From positions 62,001 to 126,000 of the forward strand of contig NZ_JAPYPG010000003.1 in assembly GCF_029937755.1 (NCBI RefSeq): DNA of 64,000 nt. Reading direction: 5' to 3'. This document shows positions 40,300 through 63,780 of this stretch, in pieces. Within the stretch, counting starts at the first letter, position 1; every line of letters begins with the position of its first letter. The notes under the pieces are model-generated. The model did not search any database. It had not been told where the DNA came from and saw only the letters and a program-made list of their open reading frames with translations. The DNA is from Henriciella sp. (GTDB lineage Bacteria > Pseudomonadota > Alphaproteobacteria > Caulobacterales > Hyphomonadaceae). The translations under genes were made by a program, and so were the position numbers.

Positions 40300-40327
40300 T
40301 TGACACCGGCGCTTCGTTTGCTATTGG
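40300..40327 (+). promoter_or_regulatory. Sigma-70-type promoter of tRNA-Asn
   Basis: A consensus TTGACA (40300-40305), 16 bases, TATTGG (40322-40327), 17 bases before the tRNA 5' end. Confidence 0.6.
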
Positions 40328-40344
40328 AGCCCTCTCGCAGGTGA

Positions 40345-40420: not shown

Positions 40421-40462
40421 GCGAACTTCCCCCAGAAAGCCGACAGGTAAGCTGGGCCCGCT

Positions 40463-43369: not shown

Positions 43370-43372
43370 GCC

Positions 43373-44368: not shown

Positions 44369-45000
44369 GAGCCACTCCCCGTTTGGGATGCAAGCACCAG
44401 GACACGGTCGTCCTCGAAACGGATCTGCATTTCCACCAATTCGGGCAGGACATTGTCTGGCGGCGTCGGCGTGCCTTCCCAATAGGTCGAGGTTTCATTG
44501 CCTTTCCAGAAGGTCATCTCGATATCGGCTATGCCGGTCAGCAATATCCGCTTCGCGGTTGGCGTCGAGACCGTTGCATCGGGACGCAACCAGGCCGTGC
44601 GCACAAGCTCACCTTCGGGTGTCAGGTCATAGCGAACCGGTTGGAGGTCGCTGCGCGGTGCCATGCCGCCAGGGTTCATCCAGCCAGAGCGCACAAGCTG
44701 GAAAAGCGCATCGGTCCGGTTGGTTTCGCCCCCGACCAGCGTCATCGCGCCATCATAACCTTCCGGCGGCTCCACACCGCGCGTAACGGCGGCCTCGAAA
44801 TCACTGCGGATGAAGGCCTGCGCGATGTCGAGCTGGCGGATCACCGCCTCCCGCTCCCTCAACTGCTCGCCGGAGGCCGTCCCCCGCAGCAGGAGGTTTC
44901 CACCGGCAACCGCCAGAATGGACAGGATGAAAAGCGCAACCAGCATCTCGGCCAGCGTGAAGCCCTTCTGCGGGCAAGTGTTGGCACACGCCCGGCTCAT
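44365..45000 (-). CDS. gspJ: Type II secretion system minor pseudopilin J
   Basis: A 211-residue minor pseudopilin. The prepilin cleavage site is CPQKG-FTLAEMLVALFILSI, with Glu at position +5. REAVIRQLDIAQAFIRSDFEAA and the C-terminal LPELVEMQIRFED match GspJ. It overlaps gspI and gspK by four bases each. Processing needs a GspO/PilD peptidase that is not encoded in this window. Confidence 0.92.
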   Translation of the reverse strand: MSRACANTCPQKGFTLAEMLVALFILSILAVAGGNLLLRGTASGEQLREREAVIRQLDIAQAFIRSDFEAAVTRGVEPPEGYDGAMTLVGGETNRTDALFQLVRSGWMNPGGMAPRSDLQPVRYDLTPEGELVRTAWLRPDATVSTPTAKRILLTGIADIEMTFWKGNETSTYWEGTPTPPDNVLPELVEMQIRFEDDRVLVLASQTGSGS

Positions 45001-45386
45001 GAGGTCTGGCCTTTCAGGGTCGTTAGCCGGGCGAGCTCCTGCTGGCGTCCGGATTGGCTCACACGGACTTCCAGCCGGAACAGGCTGTCGCGCTCGGTCG
45101 GAAAGACGGTAAGCGTCCAGTCATAGGCCCGGCCCATCTGGGCTTCACTGCCCGACGTCTGGCCTACCTGCACAGGGTCGCTGTCCGCCATCGCGCGCGA
45201 CAGGACGTTCTCAGCTGTTGTCCTGGCCAGCAATCGTGACTCCAGCCGGGCGGTATTCTGCAGCGCATCAGACGAGAGCTGCATCAGCGGCACGGCAGCC
45301 AGCGCCAGGATACCCAGCGCGGCGACGGTCTCCACAAGGCTGAAGCCCTGGGCGCGGTGTCGTGTATGGCTAGCCCGTCCGGCCAA
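44997..45386 (-). CDS. gspI: Type II secretion system minor pseudopilin I
   Basis: A 129-residue minor pseudopilin with cleavage site HRAQG-FSLVETVAALGILALA. The NTARLESRLLARTTAENVL segment is the conserved GspI helix. It nucleates the pseudopilus tip with GspJ and GspK. Its start overlaps the end of gspH by 17 bases. Confidence 0.92.
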   Translation of the reverse strand: MAGRASHTRHRAQGFSLVETVAALGILALAAVPLMQLSSDALQNTARLESRLLARTTAENVLSRAMADSDPVQVGQTSGSEAQMGRAYDWTLTVFPTERDSLFRLEVRVSQSGRQQELARLTTLKGQTS

Positions 45387-45852
45387 GGCTCACCTCACCA
45401 CCGGGATTGATCAACAGGGTCTTCTGGAAGGCGCCATAGGAGACGATCAGATTGGCCGGTTCGGTCACGCCAAGCGGGTCGAAGACCAGCATGCGGCCTC
45501 CATGATCTTCTGGCGCACGGCTCTCGTCAGGACGAACCAGCTGCACCGAAACGCCATCCGGCAGTTCGAGCACGTTACGCCGGGTGGCCTGCCACTCATA
45601 TCCGTCCCAGCGTAGCAGCGTCACCGCCCCATCAGTCGCCCGGAGTGCGAGGGTGTCGCCCGTCAGGATGGCCTGGTCCTGAATATCCCGGACCGCCTGA
45701 CCCAGTTCGCGCACGGCCTTCTCGCGCGGGCTTTCCCGCTCCGGGATGGTCATCACGGCGACGCCTGCAACCAGACCGACGATGAAGACGACAATCATCA
45801 CCTCGACCAGCGTCATGCCGGCCTGTCTTGAAAGAGAGGCGTGCCGCGTCAT
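45370..45852 (-). CDS. gspH: Type II secretion system minor pseudopilin H
   Basis: A 160-residue pseudopilin. The start at 45852 gives the leader MTRHASLSRQAG and the cleavage site G-MTLVEVMIVVFIVGLVAG; the frame stays open another 94 codons antisense-like into gspG coding and was not used. REKAVRELGQAVRDIQDQAILTGDTLAL is the typical GspH helix. It follows gspG by 7 bases. Confidence 0.9.
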   Translation of the reverse strand: MTRHASLSRQAGMTLVEVMIVVFIVGLVAGVAVMTIPERESPREKAVRELGQAVRDIQDQAILTGDTLALRATDGAVTLLRWDGYEWQATRRNVLELPDGVSVQLVRPDESRAPEDHGGRMLVFDPLGVTEPANLIVSYGAFQKTLLINPGGEVSLGRTG

Positions 45853-45859
45853 GCCGTTC

Positions 45860-46312
45860 CTAGTTCCAGTTCCCGATATCGGCATTCTCTTCTTCGCCGC
45901 CGGGCTCCCCATCGGCCCCGAGCGAGTAGAGATCATACGCCTTGTCGGAACGCTCGGCCGGGCGGCGATAGACGAAGGGACGGCCCCAAGGGTCGAGCGG
46001 CACCTTGTTGATATATCCGCCTTTCCGGTAAGAGCCCGCCGTATTTCCACGAGCCGGCTTTGTGACCAGCGCATCGAGCCCCTGCTCCGTGGTCGGATAA
46101 TCATACATGTCGAGGCTGTACTGCTCGAGCGCATTGGTAAGTGCGGAGACGTTGGTGCGCGCGGTCTTCAGCTGCGCATCGGTACGTGCGCCGAGCACGT
46201 TGAAAAGCACGACGGTCGACAGAAGGCCGATAATGAAAATCACCACCATGATCTCCGTCAGGGTGAACCCGGCTTCCTTTGAGCGTGTCGGGACAGGTTT
46301 GCGTGTCTTCAT
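45860..46312 (-). CDS. gspG: Type II secretion system major pseudopilin G
   Basis: A 150-residue major pseudopilin, the main subunit of the pseudopilus piston. The cleavage site is SKEAG-FTLTEIMVVIFIIGLLS. The family's conserved LDMYDYPTTEQGLDALV, DPWGRPFVYRRPAE and the C-terminal calcium-binding SLGADGEPGGEEENADIGNW are all present. It sits 12 bases after gspF. Confidence 0.96.
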   Translation of the reverse strand: MKTRKPVPTRSKEAGFTLTEIMVVIFIIGLLSTVVLFNVLGARTDAQLKTARTNVSALTNALEQYSLDMYDYPTTEQGLDALVTKPARGNTAGSYRKGGYINKVPLDPWGRPFVYRRPAERSDKAYDLYSLGADGEPGGEEENADIGNWN

Positions 46313-46324
46313 CGGGGTTTCCTC

Positions 46325-47539
46325 CTAACCGATGGCAAGTGTGTTGATCTGCAGGATGGGCAGCATGATGGACAGGACAATCAGCGCCACGATACCGGCG
46401 AGGACAACGATCATGATCGGCTCCAGCAGGCCGAGCGCGACGGTCGCCGCATTGTCGAATTCGTCTTCAAGATAGTTGGCGGCGCGCTCCATCATGCCGG
46501 CGAGGTCTCCGCCGCGCTCACCGCTGGCGACCATGTGCATCAGCATGGGCGGGAAAACCGCTTCGGCGCGCATGGCACGGGCAAGCGTCGACCCTTCCTC
46601 CACCTTGCGGCGGACAGTCGTCACGGCCTTGCGGAAGACGGCATTCGACATGGAATTTCTGGCCGCGCCAAGGCATTCGGGCACGGGGGCCCCACTGGCC
46701 GAGAGCGTCGCGAAAGTGCGGGCGAAGGCCGCGGCTGCAACGCCGCGCGAGAGCTTTCCGATGACTGGCAATGACAGGATGAACCGGTCACGCGCTTCTC
46801 GTGCGGCCGGGGTCTGGAACAGCCGGCGCAACGCCCACCCCGCGGCAAAGATCGCGATCAAGAGGACCACCCCCCATTGCCGGATGAAGGTTGATACAGC
46901 GATGACCGCGTCGGTGAGCCAAGGCAGGTCCTGGCCGAGCGTATCGAACTGTTCGACAATCGCCGGCACGACGAAGATCATCAGCAGCGTCACGACGAGA
47001 AGCGCAATCACACTCAGCACGATCGGATAGATCAGGGCGGAGAGAATCTTGTTCTTCATCTTCCTCGATTTCTCGAGGTGGGTGGCGAGCCGTTCCAGAA
47101 CTTCATCGAGACGGCCGGAGGACTGGCCAGCAGAAACCACCGCCCGATAAAAAGCCGGGAAGGCTTTCGGGGCGCTGTTCAACGCTTCAGAGACCGAATA
47201 GCCGTCGGTGATCGACGAGCGCACGCCCATGAAGACCTTGCGCGTCGAGGGCTTCTCGGCTTCGGCGGCGACCGATCCGATCGCTTCCTCAACCGGCGTG
47301 CCGGCTTTCACGAGTAGCGCCAGCTGGCGCGTCGCCACGACGAGATCGCCCCCCGGCAGCTTCTGGTCATGGCCGCTGACCGCACTTGCCGACCGGCCCT
47401 TGCGGCTCTCGCTGACATCAAGCGGAGAAAGCTGGCGCAGGCGCAGTTCCTTGCGGGCCGCACGCGGGGAATCGGCGGTGATCACACCGGAGGTGCGTTT
47501 CCCGTCAGCAGCCAGCGCCTGATAGTCGTAGACGGCCAT
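46325..47539 (-). CDS. gspF: Type II secretion system inner-membrane protein F
   Basis: A 404-residue polytopic membrane protein with two repeated GspF domains. The N-terminal MAVYDYQALAADGKRTSGVI and DLVVATRQLALLVKAGTPVEEAI, the SGRLDEVLERLATHLEKSRKMKNKI segment, and the second-domain ARTFATLSASGAPVPECLG and VASGERGGDLAGMMERAANY are diagnostic. Three membrane helices are visible. It connects the GspE ATPase to pseudopilus assembly. Confidence 0.95.
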   Translation of the reverse strand: MAVYDYQALAADGKRTSGVITADSPRAARKELRLRQLSPLDVSESRKGRSASAVSGHDQKLPGGDLVVATRQLALLVKAGTPVEEAIGSVAAEAEKPSTRKVFMGVRSSITDGYSVSEALNSAPKAFPAFYRAVVSAGQSSGRLDEVLERLATHLEKSRKMKNKILSALIYPIVLSVIALLVVTLLMIFVVPAIVEQFDTLGQDLPWLTDAVIAVSTFIRQWGVVLLIAIFAAGWALRRLFQTPAAREARDRFILSLPVIGKLSRGVAAAAFARTFATLSASGAPVPECLGAARNSMSNAVFRKAVTTVRRKVEEGSTLARAMRAEAVFPPMLMHMVASGERGGDLAGMMERAANYLEDEFDNAATVALGLLEPIMIVVLAGIVALIVLSIMLPILQINTLAIG

Positions 47540-47541
47540 TG

Positions 47542-49032
47542 CTAGCTCTCATCCTTGCGGCAGACTCGCAGGACTTCCTCGACGCTGGTCTGGCCGGCGA
47601 CCACATAGCGGCGTGCATTGCGGAACAGCGTATCGTGTCCAGCGAAGGCGCGGGCTTCGAGGTCGTCCTCGGACACATCCTCACGAATGAGTTGGCGCAC
47701 CTCCTGGTCGACGACCAGAAGCTCATAGACGCCGAGGCGGCCCTCATAGCCGGTCTGGGCGCAGGCCATGCAGCCTTGCGGGCGGTAGAATTCATGGTGT
47801 TCTTCAAGCGGCACGCCGAACATCGCCTTCTCGTCGGCCGTTGCCTCGTGTGGCACCTTGCAATGGTCGCAGAGCTTTCGCACGAGCCGCTGGGCGAGCA
47901 CAGCGCGCATGGTCGCCGCGAGCACATAGGGCTCGATCCCCATATCGCGCAGGCGCTGGATCGCCCCGGCGGCACTATTGGTATGCACGGTGGAGAGTGC
48001 CGGGCGGCCGGTCGATGAGAACTCGAAGGCCACCTTGGCGGTTTCGAGGTCGCGGATCTCGCCGACCATAACCACGTCCGGGTCGTGTCGCAGAATCGCA
48101 CGCAGCGTGGCGGCGAAGGTCAGCCCGACCTTGTGGTGCATCTGCGTCTGGCTGATGCCTTCCAGGCCATATTCGATCGGGTCTTCCAGCGTCATGACGT
48201 TTCGCTGGCCATTGTTGAGCACAGACAGTGCCGAATACAGCGTCGTGGTCTTGCCCGAACCGGTGGGGCCAGTCACCAGCGTGATCCCGTTCGGCTGGGC
48301 GAGCACCGACCGGAAACGTCTGAGCGTTTCTTCGTCCATGCCAAGTTCGTCGAGCCCGAGCAGCGCATTGCGCGTGTCGAGCAGGCGCATGGTGACCCGT
48401 TCGCCATAGCGCGATGGCAGCGTGGAGACGCGGACATCAATGGATCGTCCACCAATGGAAAGTGAAATCCGGCCGTCCTGCGGGATGCGTTTTTCCGCGA
48501 TATCGAGCCGCGCCATCACCTTCACCCGGCTGGTCAGCGGAGCGGCGAGACGGCGAGACGGCGTCAGCACTTCCTGCAGCACGCCGTCGATCCGGTAGCG
48601 TACCGACAGCGTATCTTCATGCGGCTCAATATGAATATCCGACGCGCGCCGCTTCACAGCTTCATAGATGAGGCCATTGATCAGGCGAACGACCGGCGCA
48701 TCATCATCACCGTCTAGCAGGTCTGCGGTCTGCGGGATGTCATCAATGAGCGACATGAGATCGCCCTCGCCATCCATGGCCGCTTCCGTTTCACCGCCAT
48801 CAATCGCGGCGCGGGCATAGTGTTCGGACAATTCCCGCTCAAACCGGGCTGGATCGAGCGGCTGGAAGCTCAGCGGGCGACCGATGGCGCGGCGCGCCTC
48901 GAGAATGGCGACAGGGTCGGCGCCCGCGCGGACGCCGAGCTCGACGGTCTCGCCATCCCTCGACAGCACGACCAGGCCCTTGTCGCGTGCAAAGGCATAG
49001 GTCAGCGTCCGTCCTGTCTCTGCCTCACTCAT
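47542..49032 (-). CDS. gspE: Type II secretion system ATPase E
   Basis: A 496-residue secretion ATPase. Walker A is GPTGSGKTTTLYS near residue 255, the Walker B region is HDPDVVMVGEIRDLETA, and a tetracysteine zinc site is formed by CDHC and CMAC (roughly residues 390-430). The Asp box SDIHIEPHED and the His box STVHTNSAAGAIQRL are intact. It powers pseudopilus assembly from the cytoplasm. It is 2 bases from gspF and 35 from gspD. Confidence 0.97.
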   Translation of the reverse strand: MSEAETGRTLTYAFARDKGLVVLSRDGETVELGVRAGADPVAILEARRAIGRPLSFQPLDPARFERELSEHYARAAIDGGETEAAMDGEGDLMSLIDDIPQTADLLDGDDDAPVVRLINGLIYEAVKRRASDIHIEPHEDTLSVRYRIDGVLQEVLTPSRRLAAPLTSRVKVMARLDIAEKRIPQDGRISLSIGGRSIDVRVSTLPSRYGERVTMRLLDTRNALLGLDELGMDEETLRRFRSVLAQPNGITLVTGPTGSGKTTTLYSALSVLNNGQRNVMTLEDPIEYGLEGISQTQMHHKVGLTFAATLRAILRHDPDVVMVGEIRDLETAKVAFEFSSTGRPALSTVHTNSAAGAIQRLRDMGIEPYVLAATMRAVLAQRLVRKLCDHCKVPHEATADEKAMFGVPLEEHHEFYRPQGCMACAQTGYEGRLGVYELLVVDQEVRQLIREDVSEDDLEARAFAGHDTLFRNARRYVVAGQTSVEEVLRVCRKDES

Positions 49033-49067
49033 TCATGCCACCATCGCTGCAGTCATGGCTGCAAGCC

Positions 49068-51017
49068 CTACTGGTCCTGCGGCACAGGCGGTTCGCTCAA
49101 CACCTGCCCCAGGAACTCGTCCAAGGATACGTTCACCTCGTCTTCGCGCAACAATTCCTGCGCGCGGATATAGTTGTAGCTACGGGCCGTCACGCGCGCT
49201 GCATCCTCGCGGTCGCGCACGATGGTCGGCTTGATGAAAACCATCAGATTGGTGCGCGTGCCGCCCCGGCCTTCCGACTTGAACAGGTTCCCGGCCACCG
49301 GAATGTCGCCCAGGAACGGCACTTTGGAACTCTGCTTGGATTCCGTCTGCTCAATCAGGCCGCCCAGCACGATGATTTCGCCATCGTCGGCAAGCACGCT
49401 GGTCGAGATGTTCCGGGTGTTCAGGATCAGGTCCGGTGAAACATTACCAACCTGGCCGAACACGCTGGAAACTTCCTGGAAGATGTCGAGGCGGATCGTG
49501 TCGTCCGAGGAGATGCGCGGTGTGACTTCGAGCTTCACACCGACCTCTTCACGCTGAACGGTTCGGAAAGGGTTGGAATTGTCCGATCCCAGAACCTCAC
49601 CCGATGTCAGCGGGACATTCTGGCCGACGAGGAGGGAAGAGGTGCCATTGTCGAGGGTCATGTTGAACGGTTTCGACAGGACGCGGGAATTGGTGTCTTC
49701 CTCAACTGCGTTGATGACCGCACCGAACAGCGTATCGCCGCTCTGGCCGCCGATTCCCAGCAGTGTGCCATTGACCCCGAGCAGGGAGCTGATGGCCGCC
49801 TGCTGGAAGGGATTGCTGCCATCACTCTCGCCGTCACCGAAGATATCTTCATTGATGAGGGCGCCAGCAAGCGCCAGGAGGTTCGGCGCGGACCGCGAAA
49901 AATTCGTGCCGACGAGCGGCGTTGTGGAATCGCCTTGCCCGGCGAGCAGGAACTGGACCCCGAGTTCGCGCGCGGTGTCATCCGACATCTCGACAATGAT
50001 CGCCTCGACAAGCACTTGCGCACGGCGCTGGTCCAGCGCATCGACCACGCGCTGCATGGCAAGCAGCGTATCAGGCTGGGCGCTGATGATCAGGGAGTTT
50101 GATTCCGCGTGGTGGGCGATCGTCGCGCGCGGTGCGGTCGTCTCGGCCGGTCCGGTCTGCTCGGCCATCGTGGCGGCGAGCTTTTCAAGCACCGGAAGGA
50201 TTTCCTCTGCCTTGGCGTTGTTGAGCTGCATGACGCGAAGATTGTCGCGTGTCGGCTCTTCCGCATCGAGGTCGGAGGCAACCTTGAGGGCGCGGGTCAC
50301 CAGCGCATTATCGCCGCGCACGACAATGGAATTGCTCGTCGGCGAGGAGGACACTTCGAAATTCGGAACGGGATTGCCGTCACGCGTGCCCAGCAGGTCG
50401 GTCAGCAGCTGCGCCATTTCCCGCGACGGGACGCTCTTGAGCGCAAGCGACCGCACATCCGAGCTGTCGTCCTCATCAAGTTCCGCGATGATGTTGCGGA
50501 TACGCGGCATGTTGGACGCATAGTCGACGACGACCACGGAATTGGACCGCGAATTGGCGACAACCTGCCCCTGCGCATCGACCAGTGGCTTCACCATCTG
50601 GGCCGCTTCGACCGCCCCGAACGTTTCGAGCCTGAAGACCTGGGTGATGAACGTGTTCGGACCGGTATTCGCAACGCCGGCTTCACCGACCGCGAGCTGC
50701 TCTGGCACGATGCGGTAAACACCCTTCCCTGCAGGGATCGCCGCAAAGCCATGCACCCGCAGCGTCGACAGGAAAACCTGAAAGACCTCGTCAGTCGTCA
50801 TCGGGGCCTGCGACAGAACCGTCACGCGCGTGCGCGCCACATCCGGATGCAGGATGAAGGTATAACCGGTGATGATCGAGACATCGTCAATCAGCGCTGT
50901 GATCTCGACGTCGTCGAGGCTCAACACATGGCGTGCCGATTGCGGTGACTGCATTTCCGCATGCGTTGCCGGCGCAGCAAACGCCAGGACAGCCAGAGCG
51001 GTCATAAAATGCTTCAT
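49068..51017 (-). CDS. gspD: Type II secretion system secretin D
   Basis: A 649-residue outer-membrane secretin with a signal peptide (ending THA-EM). The N0 domain begins HVLSLDDVEITALIDDVSIITG; N1-N3 repeats follow (VFRLETFGAVEAAQMVKPLV, LALKSVPSREMAQLLTDLL, VMQLNNAKAEEILPVLEKL). The secretin core has QVLVEAIIVEMSDD, VPLTSGEV and VPFLGDIPVAGNLFKS. No C-terminal pilotin-binding S-domain is obvious. It forms the exit channel for folded substrates. Confidence 0.97.
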   Translation of the reverse strand: MKHFMTALAVLAFAAPATHAEMQSPQSARHVLSLDDVEITALIDDVSIITGYTFILHPDVARTRVTVLSQAPMTTDEVFQVFLSTLRVHGFAAIPAGKGVYRIVPEQLAVGEAGVANTGPNTFITQVFRLETFGAVEAAQMVKPLVDAQGQVVANSRSNSVVVVDYASNMPRIRNIIAELDEDDSSDVRSLALKSVPSREMAQLLTDLLGTRDGNPVPNFEVSSSPTSNSIVVRGDNALVTRALKVASDLDAEEPTRDNLRVMQLNNAKAEEILPVLEKLAATMAEQTGPAETTAPRATIAHHAESNSLIISAQPDTLLAMQRVVDALDQRRAQVLVEAIIVEMSDDTARELGVQFLLAGQGDSTTPLVGTNFSRSAPNLLALAGALINEDIFGDGESDGSNPFQQAAISSLLGVNGTLLGIGGQSGDTLFGAVINAVEEDTNSRVLSKPFNMTLDNGTSSLLVGQNVPLTSGEVLGSDNSNPFRTVQREEVGVKLEVTPRISSDDTIRLDIFQEVSSVFGQVGNVSPDLILNTRNISTSVLADDGEIIVLGGLIEQTESKQSSKVPFLGDIPVAGNLFKSEGRGGTRTNLMVFIKPTIVRDREDAARVTARSYNYIRAQELLREDEVNVSLDEFLGQVLSEPPVPQDQ

Positions 51018-51874
51018 TACTCTCGCTCCTCCTCGAAGCGGATTTCGATGGTGCGGGTCTCGCCTGACCGCTGGAGATCAAGTGTCGCCACCCCGCCAGC
51101 CTCGAGTTCTGTGGACAAGGCCGACAGGTCTGTTTCTGATACGCTCACGCCGTTTACGTTCAAAAGCTGGTCTCCAGGTTCAAGGCCAGCTGCACGCATG
51201 AGACTGCCATCTCCCTTTGGCCGCAAAACCAGGCTGGAGACCACGTCGTTTCTCATCCGCGGCTCAGCATCGATGCCGGCAAGCAATGTCCGCGCCGACA
51301 GACCCGGTTCAAACAGGGACGGGCTTTCGCTGGTCACGCGGCCAGCTTCATTCCGCGCGGTCGCTGGATCGCCGATGACAGACAGCCCCGCGTCGCGGCC
51401 GCTGCGCATGATCGTCTCTTCCCGGCCATCCCGGGTGATGATTGCCCGGTCTGAGAGCACGCGGTCGAGCATGACCCCAGGCAGGATTTCCTCGCCTGGC
51501 TCATAGCGGGTGGCCGTGTTGTCGGGGGTGATGATGGTCGCCGACGACGTGCCACTGTCGCCAGTCGACATGAAAAGGGCAACGAGCTTGAGATTGAGAT
51601 CGGTCTCCGGAGCATCGGGAACGGCTTCTGAAGCCCCCTCCCCCACTTCGAACGGGTTCTCTTTCAGGAGCAGGCTGATATCCGCCCGCACATCACTGAC
51701 AGACCTCTGCCCGACCGGCGTTGGCAGCGGCCGCGGGGTCAGCGTCGACACAGCATCGCCGGGGGCAACAAGCAGCCAGCAGATGCGCGCGACGAGATAT
51801 GCGACCGCGATCAGCAACACGAATTGCGTGCCGATGCGTGCCGTTTCGACAAGTCTGGGGTCCATCACCCTCAT
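51017..51874 (-). CDS. gspC: Type II secretion system protein C
   Basis: A 285-residue inner-membrane protein: a short cytoplasmic start, one helix (about 14-32), a Pro-rich linker (TPRPLPTPV), the HR domain (FMSTGDSGTSSATIITPDNTA, YEPGEEILPGVMLDRVLSDRAIITRDGREE) and a C-terminal PDZ-like domain (LRPKGDGSLMRAAGLEPGDQLLNVNGVSVSE). GspC links the platform to GspD N0. It is the first gsp gene and shares one base with gspD. The sequence before it contains a strong hairpin. Confidence 0.9.
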   Translation of the reverse strand: MRVMDPRLVETARIGTQFVLLIAVAYLVARICWLLVAPGDAVSTLTPRPLPTPVGQRSVSDVRADISLLLKENPFEVGEGASEAVPDAPETDLNLKLVALFMSTGDSGTSSATIITPDNTATRYEPGEEILPGVMLDRVLSDRAIITRDGREETIMRSGRDAGLSVIGDPATARNEAGRVTSESPSLFEPGLSARTLLAGIDAEPRMRNDVVSSLVLRPKGDGSLMRAAGLEPGDQLLNVNGVSVSETDLSALSTELEAGGVATLDLQRSGETRTIEIRFEEERE

Positions 51875-51908
51875 TAAAGTCTACCCGTTTCCCCTCTGGG
51901 GATAGAAT

Positions 51909-51937
51909 GGTTGAGGGCGGGGAGCCCGCCCTCAACC
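51909..51937 (-). terminator. Perfect hairpin between TonB-dependent receptor and gspC
   Basis: GGTTGAGGGCGGG, a 3-base loop, CCCGCCCTCAACC: a perfect 13-bp stem 55 bases after the receptor stop and 35 before the gspC start. No T-run follows on either strand. It may partly terminate, protect or process a transcript running from the receptor into the gsp genes. Confidence 0.45.
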
Positions 51938-51991
51938 GTACATATTAGGCCAGATCAGGCAATTGCGCGAACGCCTGACGCAGGCCCTGCT

Positions 51992-54661
51992 CTAGAACCG
52001 GCGCTTCAGGCCGAGAGAGATCGAGGTGCCGATATCGTACACGTCGACATCAATCCGGTCTCCGCCACGTTCCTGATAGGCTTCATAGTCATCTCCAAGC
52101 AGGTTCTTGACCTTGAAGCTGAACTCATAATCTCCTCCGCGGAAATCGAACCCCTGATTGAGCACGAAGTCCACCGTCAGGGGTGGTTCTTCGATGATCG
52201 CCGGGATGTTCAGGGCCAGCGCTTCACCAGACCGGATCCGCTCGCTCGCATAGTTGACGAGGATGTTGGCTTCCGTACCCGACATCTCATCGGTGTAGAT
52301 GAGCTGCAGGTTGAACAGATGCTCAGACTGCCCCTGCAGGCGGCGTCCGTCCTCGATCAGGCCAGCCCCCGGGAGCGGGAAAGGCTCGGGGTTAAGCGGG
52401 TTCTGATTGGTGATGACGCACTCTTCCGAAAACTGCGCACAGAATTCCGGTGTCGTCAGACCCAGATCTGCCGGGTTGCGGCCTGCCGAGACTTCCGAGT
52501 CCGACCAGGTATAGTTCGCCTTCACGGTCAGGTCCCGGTCGCGGAAGAAGTCGAGACCGAACGTATCGAACATCGGCAGGGCCTGCTCATACTCCATCTC
52601 GACGCCGTAGAGTTCTGCGCTCGGAACGTTGATGAAGGTCGTCACCGGCTCATCGCCTGACCGGTTGTTGATCTCCTCAATCGGGCGTTCCATGTCCTTG
52701 TAGAAGACACCAAAGGTCACGAACTGCTCGCGGCCGAAATAGTATTCGGCCCGGATATCATAGTTCTCGATCGAAGCGTTGATCAGGAACGGGTTCCCCT
52801 GGAAGACCACATCCGTTTCGGTGTTGAGGAATTCCGTCGGCGCCAGTTCGCGGAACTGCGGACGCGTCAGGGTTTCGGAATAGCCTGCCCGCACCTGCAG
52901 ATCATCGAACGGGTTCCAGGTGACGGTTGCGGCCGGAAGTAGGTCATACTCATAGTCACAACTGCCGTCCGGTTCGCGGTCGATGCAGGACTCGACGAAG
53001 TTCTGGGACGGATCGCCACCGATGACACGCGTATCGATCGCCTCGATGGCGCGCTCGTAGCGAACACCGATCGCCCCACGCAGATACGGTGTGATCTGCG
53101 TATCCAGTCCGGCATAGGCGGCATCGACTTCCAGCGTTGCCACATATTGTTCCGGGAACTGGTCGCCGCCGATCGAACTGGAATCGAGATCGCCATTGGC
53201 AAACAGCGACGAGAACAGATAGTCGATCCGCGTGCTGGAGAGCGGCAGGCCCTCGATCGCGAAGATACGCGACGTCGCAAGCCGGTCGCTTTCGAGATAG
53301 GCGTAACCCGCTTTCAGGTCCGTTTCACAGAACAGATAGCAATCGGCGCCCCGCATGATTGGCAGTTCGAGATCGATGCCGAGGTCTGTGGAGTCATCGT
53401 CAATCGTGCTGAAGGTGAAGGTCGTGTCTTCAGAGTTGGCGAGCGTCTGAAGGCCCTGCCCTGAATCCTGGTAGAGGATCGAGAACTGGTATGGCGCATT
53501 GCGCTGGGCTTCGGAATAGGACGCCCGCCAGTCGACCTTCAGGTCCATCAGCGATGGGAAGAAGTGCTCCCCGGAAAGCTGGGTTGTCCAGAGCTGGCGT
53601 TCGAACCACTCGATATTGTCCTGACGTTCGAAGTTGTCATCGAAATCGATACCCTGCTCGGTGCGGGCTTCCTTCGAAGTCGACCGGGTAATCAGCGCCG
53701 TCCCGCGAATCTCGTGATTGTCATAGAGATCGAAACCGACTGTTGCGAAGCCATTCACACCGACGGAATTCTCGGTGGCATAAAGGTCGTTCTCGAAGCG
53801 CTGTTGCAGGCCATCACCGGAGCTGTCGCCAAACCCGCGCTTGCCTTCCCTCGTGCTCCATTCATTCGAATAGGCAACCGCAGCCAGAACCCCCATCGAG
53901 ATATCCGGGCTCAGATCAAAGAGCTGACCCCCGGTTGCGCTCAGGCTGATATCGGCCGGGACGGTGCCTTCCTGGGTAATCAGCAGGGAGGAGTTGTTCG
54001 TCAGCTCCCTTGCGAAATTCGCATCGGGCCCGTCCGGGCCGAGCGTCGGCGGTGTGCGCACATTGTCTGACACACCGAGGAAGTCGAGGTCGCCGCCATC
54101 ATAAAGCAGACCGTCCTGGAAGGTTGTCTGCGTGTCGCCGGAAACAGTGGCCGACACTTCAAAGAAAGCCTCATCAGGAACCGTCTTCGTGCGAATGTCG
54201 ACAAGCCCGCCCGCAAATTCACCCGGAAGGTCCGGCGAATAGGTCTTCTGCACGAGAATGCTGCGCAGGACCGAGGTCGGGAAGAGGTCGAGTGGCGCGA
54301 CACGGCGGAGCGGTTCCGGGCTCGGCAGCGGCGAGCCGTTGAGCGTCGCACTGGAATAGCGTTCGTTCAGGCCTCGCACATAGACGAAACGGTCTTCGGC
54401 CGTCGAAATCCCTGCCACGCGTGAGAGGGCTGCGGCTGCGTCGGCGTCCCCGGAGACCTGGAAATCCTTGGCGTCGATGAGGCTGGAAACTTCTGACGTG
54501 GAGCGCTTTTCGTCCGGGATGAACTGTCCGCGGACCACAACGCTCTGCTGGCGAAGCTCATCAGACGGGTCTTCAGCTTCCTGGGCAGAGACAGCGGATA
54601 TGCAGGCCAGCGAAGCCCCTGTCAGCAGCGCCAGGCGAAAATAAGTGGCAGGTTTCAACAT
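51992..54661 (-). CDS. TonB-dependent outer membrane receptor
   Basis: An 889-residue TonB-dependent receptor with a signal peptide (ending VSA-QE). The plug domain is clear: SDADAAAALSRVAGIS-type sequence (GDADAAAALSRVAGIS), RFVYVRGLNERYSSATLNG and LVDIRTKT. The barrel has a TonB-dependent C-terminal signature ending ISLGLKRRF with terminal Phe, and the LRAGYSETLTRPQFREL-type segment (VRAGYSETLTRPQFREL) before it. The substrate is unknown. It sits between a Pho-box-controlled lipoprotein and the T2SS operon on the same strand, which suggests uptake of something the secreted lipoprotein releases or binds. Confidence 0.93.
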   Translation of the reverse strand: MLKPATYFRLALLTGASLACISAVSAQEAEDPSDELRQQSVVVRGQFIPDEKRSTSEVSSLIDAKDFQVSGDADAAAALSRVAGISTAEDRFVYVRGLNERYSSATLNGSPLPSPEPLRRVAPLDLFPTSVLRSILVQKTYSPDLPGEFAGGLVDIRTKTVPDEAFFEVSATVSGDTQTTFQDGLLYDGGDLDFLGVSDNVRTPPTLGPDGPDANFARELTNNSSLLITQEGTVPADISLSATGGQLFDLSPDISMGVLAAVAYSNEWSTREGKRGFGDSSGDGLQQRFENDLYATENSVGVNGFATVGFDLYDNHEIRGTALITRSTSKEARTEQGIDFDDNFERQDNIEWFERQLWTTQLSGEHFFPSLMDLKVDWRASYSEAQRNAPYQFSILYQDSGQGLQTLANSEDTTFTFSTIDDDSTDLGIDLELPIMRGADCYLFCETDLKAGYAYLESDRLATSRIFAIEGLPLSSTRIDYLFSSLFANGDLDSSSIGGDQFPEQYVATLEVDAAYAGLDTQITPYLRGAIGVRYERAIEAIDTRVIGGDPSQNFVESCIDREPDGSCDYEYDLLPAATVTWNPFDDLQVRAGYSETLTRPQFRELAPTEFLNTETDVVFQGNPFLINASIENYDIRAEYYFGREQFVTFGVFYKDMERPIEEINNRSGDEPVTTFINVPSAELYGVEMEYEQALPMFDTFGLDFFRDRDLTVKANYTWSDSEVSAGRNPADLGLTTPEFCAQFSEECVITNQNPLNPEPFPLPGAGLIEDGRRLQGQSEHLFNLQLIYTDEMSGTEANILVNYASERIRSGEALALNIPAIIEEPPLTVDFVLNQGFDFRGGDYEFSFKVKNLLGDDYEAYQERGGDRIDVDVYDIGTSISLGLKRRF

Positions 54662-54716
54662 GGTTATTCCCTCGGAGGAGAGGAGTTGCCTCCTCTGTGA
54701 GATGTCTGAATACGAT

Positions 54717-54750
54717 GGGGCAGAGCGACCGTTTCGGACCGCCCTGCCCC
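54717..54750 (-). terminator. Inverted repeat between the large lipoprotein gene and the receptor gene
   Basis: GGGGCAG (54717-54723) and CTGCCCC (54744-54750), with further partial pairing inside (GCG/CGC and CCG/CGG), 17 bases after the lipoprotein stop. No T-run is present. A second small hairpin (AGAGGAG/CTCCTCT, 54679-54696) lies just upstream of the receptor's Shine-Dalgarno. Confidence 0.4.
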
Positions 54751-54766
54751 GGATTGTCAGCGGTCG

Positions 54767-57658
<2,892 letters not shown>

Positions 57659-58063
57659 GAGAGCCCCCTCAGGGTTTTCGATCCATCACTCGAGCGGAGA
57701 AGACGCAGCCTTCCCCGAACTCGCAGGGCCCTATGGCACAGCTCATTGAAACTAATGCGACATCACAAAACCTTCACATCATTGCATTTTTTATACGCTT
57801 TTCTGACAGTTACGTGACACTCCAAGCATAAATCCCGTATAAAATTAACTATTGAAGACGGCGTGATGCTGAAGCGAAGGAGAGTTACAGAGCTAGCCGG
57901 GTTTTCTCCGCATGCGGATATAGACGGTGTCATCGAAGCGCAGCCAATTAATCCACAGGGGAATCAAGGCGCTCCTGCCATGCGGCACGAAAGCCACACT
58001 GTGGGAGGAAGCGGACGGCCGGCTTCAGGTTTCAAGAACAGGGGTCAGGCCGGAAGCTTGTGC
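57659..58063. other. 405-base intergenic region upstream of the large lipoprotein
   Basis: AT-rich from 57755 to 57860 compared with its surroundings. It holds the Pho-box promoter described separately. The remaining part, 57860-58063, is ordinary in composition; a 97-codon plus-strand frame at 57863 overlaps the next gene and was not accepted. Confidence 0.6.
57790..57820 (-). promoter_or_regulatory. Pho-box promoter of the large lipoprotein gene
   Basis: On the minus strand GTGTCAC (57820-57814), four bases, CTGTCAG (57809-57803): two 7-mers 11 bases apart, matching 5/7 and 6/7 of the CTGTCAT-N4-CTGTCAT PhoB consensus. Seven bases downstream is TATAAA (57795-57790), a perfect place for a -10 when the Pho box replaces the -35. 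The leader to the ATG at 57658 would be about 125 bases. Confidence 0.55.
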
Positions 58064-58957
58064 CTACTTCTGACTGCCAGTTACGTCACTTCCAGCAAGC
58101 GCCGCGGTCAGGGCTATCTCCATCAGCACGCCATCGCGGGAGAAGAAAAGAACTGATCCGTCGGCAGACAATCCTGCTCCAAAGTCGATTCCCGCCGTGT
58201 TGACTGGTTCACCCAGATTATAGGGGATGCCCCAGGTGCCGGTTTCATCGCGCTCGGCCGTCCAGATATCGACGACACCGAGTTTCGGCTGACGGTGGGA
58301 ATAGAAGAAAAGCCGCTCGCCATCGGGCGTAACCGCTACATGGGCATCGGCTTTTGCATCGTTGAAGCCATCCGGCATCTTCGAGACCGTCCAGTCTCCG
58401 CTGGCCTCATCGAACCGGGCCTCGAAAATGTCATGACCACCAACGCTGTCATAGCCATTGGAGGTGAAATAGAGGCGGCCCTCGCGGTCCATGGCAGGAT
58501 TGAGCTGCTCAGCACCGTCATTGATCGATGCGGGCAGATGTTCCGGCGTCCCCCACCCTTCACCGTCCAGCGCAACACGCCAGAGATTGGCATCCCGCTG
58601 GCCGCGGTCGAGAATGTCGATGTCAGATGCGTAATAGAGCATGCCATCAGCAAAGCTGAAGGACGGCGTGGTCAACTTGTTACGCGTCGGAAAATCGAGC
58701 TCTGCGGGTTCCGACCAGCTGCCATCGGACTGCTTGCGCATTTCATAGAGTTTCGTGACATCGCGATGCTCGCGCGCAAAGACGCGAACATTGCCATCCA
58801 TCGATTCGGTCAGGCTATAGGCGCGATTGAACGCGTCCGGCACTTCGGCATCGGGGAAGATGCTGCTCGGCGTCTGCGGCAGCTCCGTTTCTGACTGACT
58901 GGCACCACAGGCAGCCAGCACGCCCAGGGCGAGCAGGATCGACACGCGCTTCATCAT
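58064..58957 (-). CDS. PD40-repeat (TolB-like beta-propeller) lipoprotein
   Basis: A 297-residue predicted lipoprotein (lipobox LAAC, Cys17-18) with WD40-like PD40 repeats: LNPAMDREGRLYFTSNG, HVAVTPDGERLFFYSHR and GAGLSADGSVLFFSRDG. These blades form a beta-propeller similar to that of TolB, usually a binding rather than catalytic domain. The start at 58957 is chosen because it begins the signal peptide; the frame runs on upstream to 59305. It lies downstream of the metal-efflux genes on the same strand, 199 bases away, and no link to efflux is evident. Confidence 0.78.
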   Translation of the reverse strand: MMKRVSILLALGVLAACGASQSETELPQTPSSIFPDAEVPDAFNRAYSLTESMDGNVRVFAREHRDVTKLYEMRKQSDGSWSEPAELDFPTRNKLTTPSFSFADGMLYYASDIDILDRGQRDANLWRVALDGEGWGTPEHLPASINDGAEQLNPAMDREGRLYFTSNGYDSVGGHDIFEARFDEASGDWTVSKMPDGFNDAKADAHVAVTPDGERLFFYSHRQPKLGVVDIWTAERDETGTWGIPYNLGEPVNTAGIDFGAGLSADGSVLFFSRDGVLMEIALTAALAGSDVTGSQK

Positions 58958-58985
58958 ACACCTCGATACAGTCCGGAACCGAGGC

Positions 58986-59010
58986 GCGTCATACCCATGC
59001 GTGATGACGC
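58986..59010. repeat. Dyad upstream of the PD40 gene
   Basis: GCGTCAT (58986-58992) and ATGACGC (59004-59010), a 7-bp inverted repeat with an 11-base spacer, 28 bases before the PD40 gene start. On the plus strand TTTTCTT follows. It could be an operator or the terminator-like end of the efflux transcript; undecided. Confidence 0.25.
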
Positions 59011-59156
59011 TTTTCTTACACTCGCTGCGCACAAGCACCCGTGCGCTCCCCCAAGCTGGCGGTTTGAAGCCATCAACGTCGTCTTCCACAGTCCATCCAT
59101 CCCGGAAGGAGACATCAGTCGACAGCACTAAAGTTTCGCTGGGAAGATGCTGAAGC

Positions 59157-60374
59157 TTAATCCGGCCAAAGGTCTTCAGCCTTGATACGCATATTGATAT
59201 CTGCCCGGCGGGCCTGGAGCCGGGCTTCGGCCTCTGCCATGACGACCCGTCCATGCCGCTGCTCGGCAATGAGACGTGTCGGCAAGTCATAGGCACCAAG
59301 ATCAAAGCCGCGCCTGACGCGCTCGATGGCTGTCTGGCTGTTGGCCCGCGCCTTATCGGCGGCTCTCCAGGCCTCGTATTCGCTTGCCGCCATGATGACT
59401 GCCTGGCTGGCGTCAGCTTCGACCTGGCGGCGAAGGGCAGCGGTCTCGAGCCTCATGGCTCGTGCAAGGGAAAGGTCTCGGTCAGAAGCGGCGCTTCGCG
59501 CTGGCCCGCCAAGCGGAATGGCGACGAAGACGCCCATACCCAATTCATCGCCGCCGCGCTCCGAAAAGGCCCGGACGCCGACTTCCGGATCGGGCCGAAG
59601 GTTTGCTCTGGCCCGGCGCGAGCGCGCCTCAAGACGGCGGATCTCCGCCTCCGCCACCGCGAGGTCCGGACTGGCCGCGACGATTCTCTCCTGCCAGTTT
59701 CCACTCGTGGAGACAGAAACCGGCGCACTTACAGTGAGCAAACCTTCCGGTTTTATGAGATCCGGGAAACGGGACTGGAGCCGGGCATCTGCAATATCGG
59801 CCTCCCCTTGCCGACGGCGGGCAACGCCTTCGGCTTCGGCCAGTGCGCTCGCAGCCAGTTCGACATCCACTTCAGCAGACTGTCCACTCTCCTGCTGGCG
59901 TCCTACCGCTGCAAGGGCGCTCTCATACGTCTTGACCTGCTCGTCACTGATCCGCGCCAATTCTTCAGCTGCCAGCCAGTCCATCCAGAGATTGGCAAGT
60001 TCGAGCTTCAGGGCACGCCTCGTAAGAACGGACTGGCTTGCAGCACTATTGATAGTGGCCTTGCCAAGAGCCTTATCGAGGAGCGCCTTGCCGGGTCTTC
60101 GGATTGGACGCGAAGCGCCTATTTCAAACTCGTCGAACCGGCCCTCATGGCTAATATCACGGCTGGAATAGCCTCCCTCCAGCCGCCACTCATATTCGCC
60201 AGCCGCTTGTCGGCGGGCTTCGCTTTGAGCTGCGGAAAGCTGCTCATGGGCGGCTTGGCGGGTGGGGTGAGCGTCGATCGACGCCTGCACGCTGGGCGCT
60301 GGCGGCAGGAAGGCCTGGGCAACGGCCACAGGAGCAGACATCAGGAGACTGGTGGCAAGTAAAAGGGGTTTCAC
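59157..60374 (-). CDS. TolC-family outer membrane channel, CzcC-like
   Basis: A 405-residue outer-membrane factor with a signal peptide (ending VAVAQA). The helical TolC pattern is present: EQVKTYESALAAVGRQQESGQSAEVDVELAASALAEAEG in the first half and YDLPTRLIAEQRHGRVVMAEAEARLQAR near the end. It is the third component of the metal efflux system encoded upstream. The ATG overlaps the DUF3240 stop by four bases. Confidence 0.87.
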   Translation of the reverse strand: MKPLLLATSLLMSAPVAVAQAFLPPAPSVQASIDAHPTRQAAHEQLSAAQSEARRQAAGEYEWRLEGGYSSRDISHEGRFDEFEIGASRPIRRPGKALLDKALGKATINSAASQSVLTRRALKLELANLWMDWLAAEELARISDEQVKTYESALAAVGRQQESGQSAEVDVELAASALAEAEGVARRRQGEADIADARLQSRFPDLIKPEGLLTVSAPVSVSTSGNWQERIVAASPDLAVAEAEIRRLEARSRRARANLRPDPEVGVRAFSERGGDELGMGVFVAIPLGGPARSAASDRDLSLARAMRLETAALRRQVEADASQAVIMAASEYEAWRAADKARANSQTAIERVRRGFDLGAYDLPTRLIAEQRHGRVVMAEAEARLQARRADINMRIKAEDLWPD

Positions 60375-60682
60375 AGCAGGCGGCCTCCGGCGATCACGGG
60401 TTCGATCCAGTACATGAGTTTCGGGATGGGAGCGTTTGTCCGCACCGCCTCCAGGGCGGCGTCGATGCGTTCACGCCGGGCAATCGTCGTCAGCACGCGG
60501 CGGCTGACATTGCCCCGCACTTTCTCGACATGGCTAGCCTCGTCATAGCCGAAGCCATGCCCGGCACCGGCCCAGGTCGTGAAGCCCGGCAGAGCTGGCT
60601 CCATGCCAAGCAGGGCCTCGGTGATCGCATCCTCAGAGGCTGGCGGGTAGACCAGCGTCAGGCGGCAGAGATCGGTGTCCAT
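60371..60682 (-). CDS. DUF3240 PII-like protein in metal efflux operon
   Basis: A 103-residue small protein beginning CRLTLVYPPASEDAITEALLG with FTTWAGAGHGFGYDEASHVEKVRG and IDAALEAVRTNAPIPKLMYWIEPV. This is the pattern of DUF3240, a PII-fold family commonly found beside czcCBA genes. A metal- or nucleotide-sensing role is inferred from the fold. It overlaps the pump gene by 25 bases and the CzcC-like gene by four. Confidence 0.75.
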   Translation of the reverse strand: MDTDLCRLTLVYPPASEDAITEALLGMEPALPGFTTWAGAGHGFGYDEASHVEKVRGNVSRRVLTTIARRERIDAALEAVRTNAPIPKLMYWIEPVIAGGRLL

Positions 60683-63600
60683 TCAAGTGACCTTTCCGTC
60701 TGGCGTGCCTCGCCCTTGCCCACGCCGAAGCGGCGGAACAGGACAGGCAGGAGAAGCAGGGTAAGCAGGGTCGACGACACGAGGCCGCCAATCACGACGA
60801 TGGCGAGCGGCTTCTGGATTTCCGAGCCGGGGCCTTCGGCAAACATCAGCGGCACAAGGCCGAGAGCGGCCGTGGTGGCTGTCATCAGCACCGGGCGCAG
60901 ACGCCGCTGGGCACCTGTCTCGACCGCTGCGTGCAGTGAAAGCCCGCTCGCGATGAGCTGGTTGAAATAGCTGACAAGGACGAGCCCGTTCAGCACGGCA
61001 ATACCAAGTAGGGCGATGAAACCAACCGAGGCTGGCACGGAGAGATATTCCCCCGACATCCAGAGGGCGAGCATGCCACCGACAAGCGCAAAGGGGACGT
61101 TGGCGAAGATCAGGGCCGCCTGGCGCACGGACCGCAAGGTCGCGAACAGCACGATGAAGATCAGACCCAGCGCCATCGGCACAACAAGGGCAAGACGAGC
61201 GGCGGCGCGGCGCTGATTCTCGAACTCCCCGCCCCATTCAAGCCGGTAGCCGAGCGGAAGATCCACCTCACTGGCCACGGCCGCCTGGGCATCCCCAACA
61301 AAGCCGACAAGGTCACGCCCCTCCACGAAGGCCTGTACGAGAGCAAAGCGCGAGGCATTCTCCCGGTCGATCTTCACCGGGCCGGGCTCAACCGCGATAT
61401 GGGCAAGATCAGAGACCCGCACACTGCCGCCGTCCGGTGTGGCAATCGGCATGTCGGACAGTTGCTCAGGCGACTGGCGCAGCTCTTCCTGGCCGCGGAT
61501 CAGGATGGGCGTGCGCCGTCCCGGTTCAATGACCACACCGGCACCGATACCCTCCAGCATGGCACGCAGGCTGTCTTCGGCCTCGGAAAGCGGAAGCCCC
61601 GCCGCACCGGCGCGCATCCGGTCGAGACGCAATTGCATGAAGTCGATCGTGTCATTCGACAGGGTCATGACCTCGGCAGCGCCGTCGACGCCAGCAATCG
61701 AGGTTTCAATCTGCCCTGCGAGGTCGGCCAGCGTATCGAGGTCCGGGCCGAAAATCTTGATGGCCAGATCGCCCCGTGCACCCGTCAGCATTTCCGATGT
61801 CCGCATCTCGATCGGCTGGGTAAAGGCCGGGGCCATGCCGGGCACCGTCTGCATGGTCTTGCGCATTTCCCCGATCAGCCAGGCCTTGTCCGGCTCACGC
61901 CACTCCTCTTTCGGCTTGAGCACGAGGAACATGTCGGCTTCGTTCAGCCCCATGGGGTCGAGGCCCAGCTCATCAGACCCGACGCGTCCGATGACACTCT
62001 CGATCTCGGGGACGTCTTCCAGCAGTGCCTTCTGGACCAGCAGATCGCCTTCAACGCTTCGGCCGAGATTGACCGAGGGCAGCTTGGCGGTCTGCATGAT
62101 GACGGAGCCCTCATCCATGGTCGGCATGAAGGTCTTCCCGACACCCTGATAGGCCAGGACAGCGGCAACGATGCCACCGCCAGCGATGAGATAGACCGGC
62201 AGCGGGAAAGCGAGGCTCCAGCGCAGGAGTCGCGCATAGACCGGCGAAATCAGCCGCATCAGGAGCGGGTCGCGCCCATGCTTCTCCGGTAGCAGATAGG
62301 AGGCCAGTACCGGGATCACGGTCAGCGACAGGATCAGCGACGCGGCAAGCGCGAAGATGATCGTCGCCGCCACGGGCCGGAACAGCTTGCCCTCAAGACC
62401 CTCCAGCGACAGCAAGGGCAGGAAGACGAGACAGATGATGAGCACGCCGGAGAAAACCGGCGCGGCCACTTCAGCCGTCGCCCGGAACACGGTGTGAATT
62501 CGTGGCGCCGATGTTCCCTGGTCAGTGCGTCTTGCAAGATGCTCCACGGTGTTCTCCACGACCACAACGGCCGCATCGACAATCAGGCCGATGGCAATGG
62601 CCAGCCCGCCAAGACTCATCAGGTTGGCCGACAGCCCAAAGCCCTGCATCGCCAGGAAGGTCATGAGCGCTGCCAGTGGCAATGTAATCGCCACGACAAG
62701 GGCGGCGCGCAGATTCCCGAGAAAGAGCAGAAGCAGCACGAGGACGAGCACAATGGCTTCTGTGAGCGCCTTGCGTACAGTCGTGATGGCCCGATCAATC
62801 AGTGCAGAGCGGTCATAGAAGGGCTTGATGGTCACGCCTTCCGGAAAGGAGGGCTGCAATGTATCCAGCGTCGCACGCACATCCCGGACGATCGCATTCG
62901 CGTCCGCGCCGCGCAGCGACAGGACGATGCCCTGAACCGCTTCCCCCTCGCCATCCATCGTCACCGCGCCATAGCGCGTCAGACTGCCGATGCGGACATC
63001 AGCGACATCGCCGATCCGCACCAGACGGCCCTCGCGGCTGTCGATCGCGAGTTGCTCAAGATCATCCAGCGTTTCGATGGCCCCGACCGAGCGCACGATC
63101 AGGGCTTCATCCCCGACATCCACCCGGCCGGCCCCGTCATTGCGGTTACCAAGCTGGATAGCTTCGGCCAGATCCCCCGAGGAAAGACCGAGCTGCGCCA
63201 GAAGATCCGGATCAGGGCGCACTTCGAAGGTGCGCACCCGTCCGCCCAGCGCATTAACATCCGCCACGCCAGGCAAGGTTCTCAGCGCCGGTCGTATGGT
63301 CCAGTCGAGCAAGGACCGTTTTTCCTCAAGCGAGAGGCTGTCGCTTTCAATGGTGAACATGAACACGTCCGACAGCGGGGTCGAAATCGGCGCCAGGCCG
63401 CCGGACACGGTCGAGGGCAGATCACCCATGACCGAGCCCAGGCGCTCGGACACTTGCTGCCGGGCCCAGTAGATGTCCGCGCTGTCCTCGAAATCGATCG
63501 TGATGTCGGCAATCGCGTACTTCGCTGTCGAGCGCAGCACAGTCTGGCGCGGGATACCGAGAAGCTCCATCTCAAGCGGACGGATGACCCGCTGCTCGAC

Positions 63601-63780
63601 CTCTTCCGGGGTCATGCCCGGCGCCTTCATGACAATCTTGACCTGGGTGGTCGAGATGTCGGGAAAGGCATCAATCGGCAGGCGCATGAAGGCCAGCGCC
63701 CCGGCCAGCACCAGCAGGAGGGTTGTGGCAAGTACGAACAGGCGCTGGGTGAGCGCTCCCTGGACAATCGCGCGCAACAT
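60658..63780 (-). CDS. Heavy metal efflux RND pump (CusA/CzcA family)
   Basis: A 1040-residue inner-membrane RND pump with 12 expected membrane helices and two large periplasmic domains. The fourth-helix motif reads AIAIGLIVDAAVVVVEN: it keeps the Asp and Glu common to all heavy-metal RND pumps but lacks the first Asp of the CzcA DFG-type motif, which makes it look closer to CusA-type pumps for monovalent copper and silver. Methionines in ADMFLVL and SEMLTGA also sit where CusA has two of its three binding methionines; the third position appears to be Leu. Metal specificity therefore stays open. It shares one base with the adaptor gene. Confidence 0.93.
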   Translation of the reverse strand: MLRAIVQGALTQRLFVLATTLLLVLAGALAFMRLPIDAFPDISTTQVKIVMKAPGMTPEEVEQRVIRPLEMELLGIPRQTVLRSTAKYAIADITIDFEDSADIYWARQQVSERLGSVMGDLPSTVSGGLAPISTPLSDVFMFTIESDSLSLEEKRSLLDWTIRPALRTLPGVADVNALGGRVRTFEVRPDPDLLAQLGLSSGDLAEAIQLGNRNDGAGRVDVGDEALIVRSVGAIETLDDLEQLAIDSREGRLVRIGDVADVRIGSLTRYGAVTMDGEGEAVQGIVLSLRGADANAIVRDVRATLDTLQPSFPEGVTIKPFYDRSALIDRAITTVRKALTEAIVLVLVLLLLFLGNLRAALVVAITLPLAALMTFLAMQGFGLSANLMSLGGLAIAIGLIVDAAVVVVENTVEHLARRTDQGTSAPRIHTVFRATAEVAAPVFSGVLIICLVFLPLLSLEGLEGKLFRPVAATIIFALAASLILSLTVIPVLASYLLPEKHGRDPLLMRLISPVYARLLRWSLAFPLPVYLIAGGGIVAAVLAYQGVGKTFMPTMDEGSVIMQTAKLPSVNLGRSVEGDLLVQKALLEDVPEIESVIGRVGSDELGLDPMGLNEADMFLVLKPKEEWREPDKAWLIGEMRKTMQTVPGMAPAFTQPIEMRTSEMLTGARGDLAIKIFGPDLDTLADLAGQIETSIAGVDGAAEVMTLSNDTIDFMQLRLDRMRAGAAGLPLSEAEDSLRAMLEGIGAGVVIEPGRRTPILIRGQEELRQSPEQLSDMPIATPDGGSVRVSDLAHIAVEPGPVKIDRENASRFALVQAFVEGRDLVGFVGDAQAAVASEVDLPLGYRLEWGGEFENQRRAAARLALVVPMALGLIFIVLFATLRSVRQAALIFANVPFALVGGMLALWMSGEYLSVPASVGFIALLGIAVLNGLVLVSYFNQLIASGLSLHAAVETGAQRRLRPVLMTATTAALGLVPLMFAEGPGSEIQKPLAIVVIGGLVSSTLLTLLLLPVLFRRFGVGKGEARQTERSLEWTPISAA

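Follow-up and report, generated by a model that had tools for sequence, protein, structure and literature searches.

Which promoter serves the minus-strand run of genes that encodes a large lipoprotein, a TonB-dependent receptor and a type II secretion system (T2SS) in this Henriciella genome, and how far along the run does its control reach? The initial annotation of the window (the whole stretch of 64,000 nucleotides analyzed here) placed a Pho box at 57803-57820 and derived from it phosphate-starvation control of the entire array, with the lipoprotein as T2SS cargo. From the promoter comparisons below, Pho control of the lipoprotein gene, which resembles elpS of Caulobacter crescentus, is likely.

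The Gene Array and Its Leading Product

The array consists of the following genes:

54767-57658, minus: elpS-like lipoprotein, 963 aa (lipobox, homologues, synteny)
51992-54661, minus: TonB-dependent receptor (profile match; counterpart of cc0171 by position)
51017-51874, minus: gspC
49068-51017, minus: gspD
47542-49032, minus: gspE
46325-47539, minus: gspF
45860-46312, minus: gspG
45370-45867, minus: gspH (Pfam score 21.1, cut-off 21, marginal; start provisional)
44997-45386, minus: gspI
44365-45000, minus: gspJ
43373-44482, minus: gspK (start provisional)
42200-43369, minus: gspL (start provisional)
41709-42203, minus: gspM
40954-41709, minus: gspN
40463-40957, minus: small lipoprotein, 164 aa, lipobox, downstream of gspN

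The core gspC-N set of a T2SS is present as 12 genes, gspH being the marginal one, and the small lipoprotein at 40463-40957 has no Pfam match. The order first described (lipoprotein, receptor, 12 gsp genes, small lipoprotein) holds, but the same-strand run begins upstream of the box: the genes at 58064-63780 (PD40, OEP, DUF3240 and ACR_tran) are also on the minus strand. A match to the Caulobacter sRNA CC0196 lies at 40214-40271 on the plus strand, between tRNA-Cys and tRNA-Asn (35.7 bits; gathering score 35), and is overlapped by a terminator-like hairpin at 40246-40269.

What does the leading gene encode? AlphaFold2 predicts two tandem right-handed parallel beta-helix domains, as judged from the secondary structure of the model and from its matches, and each half of the predicted structure matches polysaccharide-active and tailspike beta-helix proteins. 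Where the homologues of family f2 (about 510-540 aa) have a single unit, this protein has two, and its best named matches are seven Henriciella records at 73-83% identity (L038-L044). Single-unit homologues (35-37%) stand beside the same receptor in five genomes of the same order, with gspD/E nearby in three of them. A receptor gene lies 3' of elpS in all fully listed loci that are alphaproteobacterial or of the window's order (L154 is left out of this statement). The mostly gammaproteobacterial set shows the same for 16 of its 18 scanned loci, the exceptions (L069 and L083) both being short. Matches to gspC/D/E beside elpS occur in part of the Alphaproteobacteria only, within flanks that span only ~3 to 9 kb, so that distant gsp genes would be missed.

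A Strong but Poorly Conserved Box

The region upstream of the lipoprotein gene contains five elements that bear on its control:

57820-57803, minus: candidate Pho box, paired half-site GTGTCAC-GTAA-CTGTCAG (from sequence)
57795-57790, minus: TATAAA, 7 bases (AAAAGCG) past that box (from sequence)
57761-57778, minus: TGTGA-N6-TGTGATG block, hardly varying among the 10 closest loci, single genome copy
57746-57763, minus: Pho-type box ATGTCGC-N4-GTTTCAA, position shared by the 10 closest loci, matrix score 11.0
57730-57735, minus: -10-like hexamer CATAGG, exactly 10 nt past the 57746-57763 box

The features first described for the box at 57803-57820, namely its motif, its 11-base period, the 7 bases to the -10 hexamer and its distance from the gene, were all confirmed from the sequence; 144 bases separate it from the lipoprotein ATG at 57658. 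It is the top-scoring half-site pair on both strands of the 64-kb window (16.5; next, 11.7). When the 260 bp upstream of the gene were shuffled 300 times with dinucleotides preserved, the best score of that region was never reached (p = 0.003). Across the genome, the word TGTCA-N6-TGTCA on its own is no more frequent than its reversed control (7 matches each); its 7 matches include the Pho box of pstC and the 57803-57820 site. The word also occurs at 1501-1516 of L005 (G000:C32:351673-351688), in a short gap between ORFs that we take to be cvpA and purF.

Is this box the promoter element? Its TATAAA lies three bases nearer than the 10 seen in same-group pstC and pstS-like promoters (TATAAA stands at N7, AAAAAA at N10), and a sigma-70 -35/-10 promoter scan of the minus strand from 40000 to 58200 gave no match. 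The ten closest loci, that is, the window itself (L008) and L009-L017, are all of the same genus; L019 and L020, also of that genus, are more distant (63% and 59%) and fall outside this set. Conservation at the box is weak (~5.8 of 10 per alignment column). The nearest relative, L009, carries GCGTCACGCATCCGTCGT at this place, a degenerate copy, and nothing resembling the box is found by eye at the same place in the alignment of the other eight. Because L009 alone of the nine closest loci keeps a copy, and a degenerate one, the exact motif fails the test of conservation at orthologous loci. The 57803-57820 box is probably an accessory, lineage-specific extra site.

A Conserved Proximal Site

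Which element do the relatives share? Conservation in the ten-locus upstream alignment is highest at ~57780-57745 (8.4-9.3 of 10 per column), and comparison of upstream regions revealed a Pho-type site at 57746-57763, common to all ten closest loci and 57 bp closer to elpS than the 57803-57820 box. The conserved block reads TGTGAAGSTTTTGTGATGTCGCAATACTGTC, with some variation between loci, and leads into GATAGC/CATAGC-like hexamers. In the window, the second half-site of the box has decayed (GTTTCAA); the relative L010 has ATGTCGC-N4-CTGTCAA-N10-GATAGG at this site, which resembles the pstC promoter GTGTCAC-N4-GTGTCAA-N10-TAAGAG. In the window's genome, TGTCACATATGTGTCA precedes pstC, an identical word occurs in 19 of 21 aligned pstC upstream regions, and pstC promoters carry a TAAGAG- or TATGAG-like hexamer 10 nt past the box.

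The upstream half-sites in the ten closest loci are TGTGA and lie outside the 11-bp register with the box. At 57761-57778 (minus) the sequence is TGTGAAGGTTTTGTGATG, which includes an exact TGA-N8-TGA; this block may be either a site for a second regulator or a set of shifted Pho half-sites. In Rhodobacter sphaeroides, the part of the literature consulted gives TGA-N8-TGA as the CenR consensus, with activating sites upstream of the -35 element (PMC9275681). The published motif, together with the near-invariance of the block in the ten closest loci and its single copy in the genome, would fit an OmpR-family regulator such as CenR acting instead of or along with PhoB. We consider this unlikely: TGA-N8-TGA is short and taken from a different order, and elsewhere the array of half-sites matches pstC/pstS-like boxes, not TGTGA. 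Since the TGA-N8-TGA lies just upstream of the conserved box, dual control by phosphate and envelope signals is possible.

Pho-Type Sites before elpS across Two Classes

How general is the PhoB-type site that we favor? We scanned the 260 bp before elpS at 43 loci with a matrix of the form [7]-N4-[7]-N10-[6], trained on 31 pstC and pstS-like promoters only, and drew p values from 300 dinucleotide shuffles. The best site reached p <= 0.05 in 30 of the 43 regions, and in 20 of 27 in a thinned set that was picked by hand after the scores had been seen. The combined Fisher p of 1.5e-22 overstates independence because the loci share ancestry. The signal depends on geometry: the mean score is 8.0 at period 11 and spacer 10 and at most 4.55 at 34 other geometries, and period scans of half-site pairs likewise peak at 11. 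The reverse-strand control averaged -0.6, with the forward strand scoring higher in 24 of 27 loci, and 60 column-permuted matrices averaged -2.6 (SD 1.4, maximum 4.5). Against real sequence, namely 1462 windows drawn at random from these loci, the 99% point was exceeded by 14 of 24 elpS regions and the 95% point by 18.

The threshold was missed by 13 of the 43 loci, four of them among the ten closest (L012, L014, L015 and L017), two others of the window's genus (L019 and L020) and seven more (L022, L046, L052, L054, L085, L149 and L150), where L046, L052 and L054 are Hyphomonas and two like it. Some passing sites are distant (L013 at -230, L153 at -225) or have a poor -10. Within the window, the matrix ranks 57803-57820 (12.0) and 57746-57763 (11.0) as the top two minus-strand sites; on the plus strand, the sites at 20328 and 20482 come out a little higher (12.3 and 12.4).

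Outside the ten closest loci, the promoters are more elaborate. When 29 such loci were anchored on their best site, half-site scores peaked at offsets of -11 and -22 (-3.1 and -3.2, against a background of -10.5, SD 1.6), neither of which was used in the anchoring. Many relatives therefore carry three to four half-sites in register before the -10, and in some up to six can be counted by eye. Read from their sequences, the elpS promoters of many relatives outside the window's group appear as a tandem double Pho box.

The signal recurs in a mostly gammaproteobacterial set of 18 elpS homologue loci, scanned with mononucleotide shuffles. At period 11, 10 of 16 loci have a pair score of at least 12, vs no more than 1 of 16 at any of ten other periods. 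Of the 14 homologues that start with a lipobox, 12 are preceded by a period-11 pair (p <= 0.026), including one titled Candidatus Azophilus (L087); L077 and L083 are without such a pair. Four gammaproteobacterial homologues without a lipobox at the predicted start (L064, L065, L067 and L070) lack the Pho box too.

The regulator itself is encoded in the window's genome (G000:C18:231245-231910; 343.5 bits, cut-off 296.2), one of 10 among 11 genomes tested with PhoB above cut-off. The sole genome without it, G047, lacks elpS as well; G006 has PhoB and no elpS match. Four genomes of the same order (G040, G044, G048 and G052) are without PstC above cut-off, yet have PhoB above cut-off and elpS homologues.

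The matrix sites, the 11/10 geometry, the double box and the 12 of 14 lipobox homologues together give good support to Pho control of elpS. The PhoB control first proposed is thus supported for the lipoprotein gene, as the PhoB gene and the gammaproteobacterial set also indicate, but conservation singles out another site than the 18-mer originally named.

Extent of the Control along the Array

Two hairpins interrupt the array:

54717-54750, minus: strong RNA hairpin between elpS and the receptor gene
51909-51937, minus: 13-bp perfect hairpin between the receptor gene and gspC

A survey of the window and 18 loci found a GC-rich hairpin 3' of elpS in all 18 loci that have intergenic sequence there, and one 3' of the receptor gene in 16 of 19 by eye (absent in L052, L054 and L092). 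Across eight of the closest loci, the main stem of the elpS-receptor hairpin has pair-keeping changes on both sides in 4 of 16 pairs, and two smaller stems hold 3 further covarying pairs. A T run follows this hairpin in two of three Ponticaulis loci (L045 and L047, not L053); none follows it in the window, where the terminator scan did not flag it. The hairpins may cause partial termination or RNA processing, which would give expression in the order elpS > receptor > gsp.

Could the 57803-57820 box with its TATAAA nevertheless drive lipoprotein, receptor and T2SS as one unit, with the lipoprotein as T2SS cargo? The box is the best half-site pair of the window, the genes share one strand, the gsp genes are tightly packed, and a 2024 study, seen in part, lists the T2SS within the PhoB regulon of C. 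crescentus (PMC11208175). We find this quite unlikely. Only one of the nine closest loci retains the box, and in degenerate form; TATAAA is 7 bases away from it, not 10; and hairpins follow both elpS and the receptor gene. Among relatives, the 260 bp before the receptor gene (25 loci; mean -5.7) and before gspC (11 loci; mean -5.6, best 3.4), which include coding sequence, give no Pho signal, and none of the 12 best matrix sites of the window precedes either gene on the minus strand. Pho-type sites precede elpS at loci L056-L061, which have no gsp match in the flank. In C. crescentus, receptor and T2SS were reported as constitutive in 2010, in the portion of that paper available to us (PMC2996285), and the 2010 and 2024 reports differ on this point. 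Of the phosphate control claimed for the whole array, the part for the lipoprotein gene is supported, and control of the receptor and T2SS by the elpS promoter is unproven.

The cargo proposal conflicts with the same source on C. crescentus, according to which ElpS gets to the cell surface independently of the T2SS, a system required just for releasing the protein (PMC2996285). On our analysis, cargo status of the window's lipoprotein would count as unproven and contrary to the published evidence on the Caulobacter gene.

A Model for the elpS-Like Promoter

That the repeats are accidental TGTCA words in AT-richer upstream DNA, as the equal genome counts for the word and its reverse and the poor conservation of the exact 57803-57820 site might suggest, is very improbable given a geometry-specific signal over 43 loci under several kinds of control, extra half-sites in register and its repetition in the mostly gammaproteobacterial set.

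We propose instead that the elpS-like gene is transcribed from a PhoB-activated promoter for which a -35 is dispensable. In its phosphorylated form, PhoB would bind direct repeats of 7-mers, spaced every 11 bp and ending 10 nt before the -10 hexamer, and would recruit RNA polymerase when phosphate is scarce. The promoter element in the window would be the 57746-57763 box with its -10 CATAGG at 57730-57735, the stronger box 57 bp upstream would be a lineage-specific addition, and the tandem double box would do the same job in many other relatives. The gene would give a lipoprotein with two beta-helix domains at the cell surface. The adjoining TonB-dependent receptor gene and the T2SS genes would receive at most partial read-through from the elpS promoter. 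The regulation, together with a phosphatase result in a partly consulted Caulobacter source, points to a probable role of the elpS-like protein in collecting extracellular phosphorus compounds.

A broader history can be offered tentatively: elpS and the receptor may form an old, widespread, SusD/SusC-like pair for scavenging phosphorus that a double Pho box places in the core Pho regulon of two classes, Alpha- and Gammaproteobacteria. The T2SS would have joined the locus later in some Alphaproteobacteria, and the distal box of the window's group would have slipped out of register and become a CenR-like site for a second regulator.

What follows from this model? Through promoter architecture alone, it ties a common, little-studied pair of lipoprotein and receptor to phosphate starvation across two bacterial classes. 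It is sharply testable and changes which site to mutate; reporter work on the 57803-57820 box alone could mislead. A possible role of ElpS-receptor pairs in the import or processing of organic phosphorus also becomes testable.

Comparison with Known Systems

How does this locus compare with known phosphate-controlled systems? The phosphate-controlled T2SS Hxc of Pseudomonas is tied to phosphatase activity as well as to phosphate starvation. The T2SS-phosphate link is alike; in the window it is the lipoprotein gene that carries the Pho box, and that this box drives gsp is unproven. PhoB-dependent promoters of the proposed type include E. coli phoA. With the pstC and pstS-like Pho promoters of its own group, the elpS promoter shares the 7-mer repeats every 11 bp, the gap of 10 nt between box and -10, and no need for a -35; unlike them, many elpS promoters of other genera have a tandem double box, and those of the window's group combine TGTGA repeats with a weak proximal box.

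The closest counterpart is the C. crescentus locus, in which, in the sections of PMC2996285 consulted, elpS (cc0170) is followed by the TonB receptor gene cc0171 and gspC-N (cc0172-cc0184), and elpS is induced 3.5-fold in phosphate-poor medium; the term "pho box" is absent from the main text of that paper. The window is like it in gene order, lipobox, adjacent receptor and complete gspC-N (PMC2996285). As far as that partial account goes, it differs in its small lipoprotein after gspN and in the size of the lead protein, ElpS being ~50 kDa vs the 963 aa and two beta-helix units of the window's lipoprotein. Judged by its gene order, we regard the locus as a Henriciella-like version of the Caulobacter elpS-TonB receptor-gspC-N locus.
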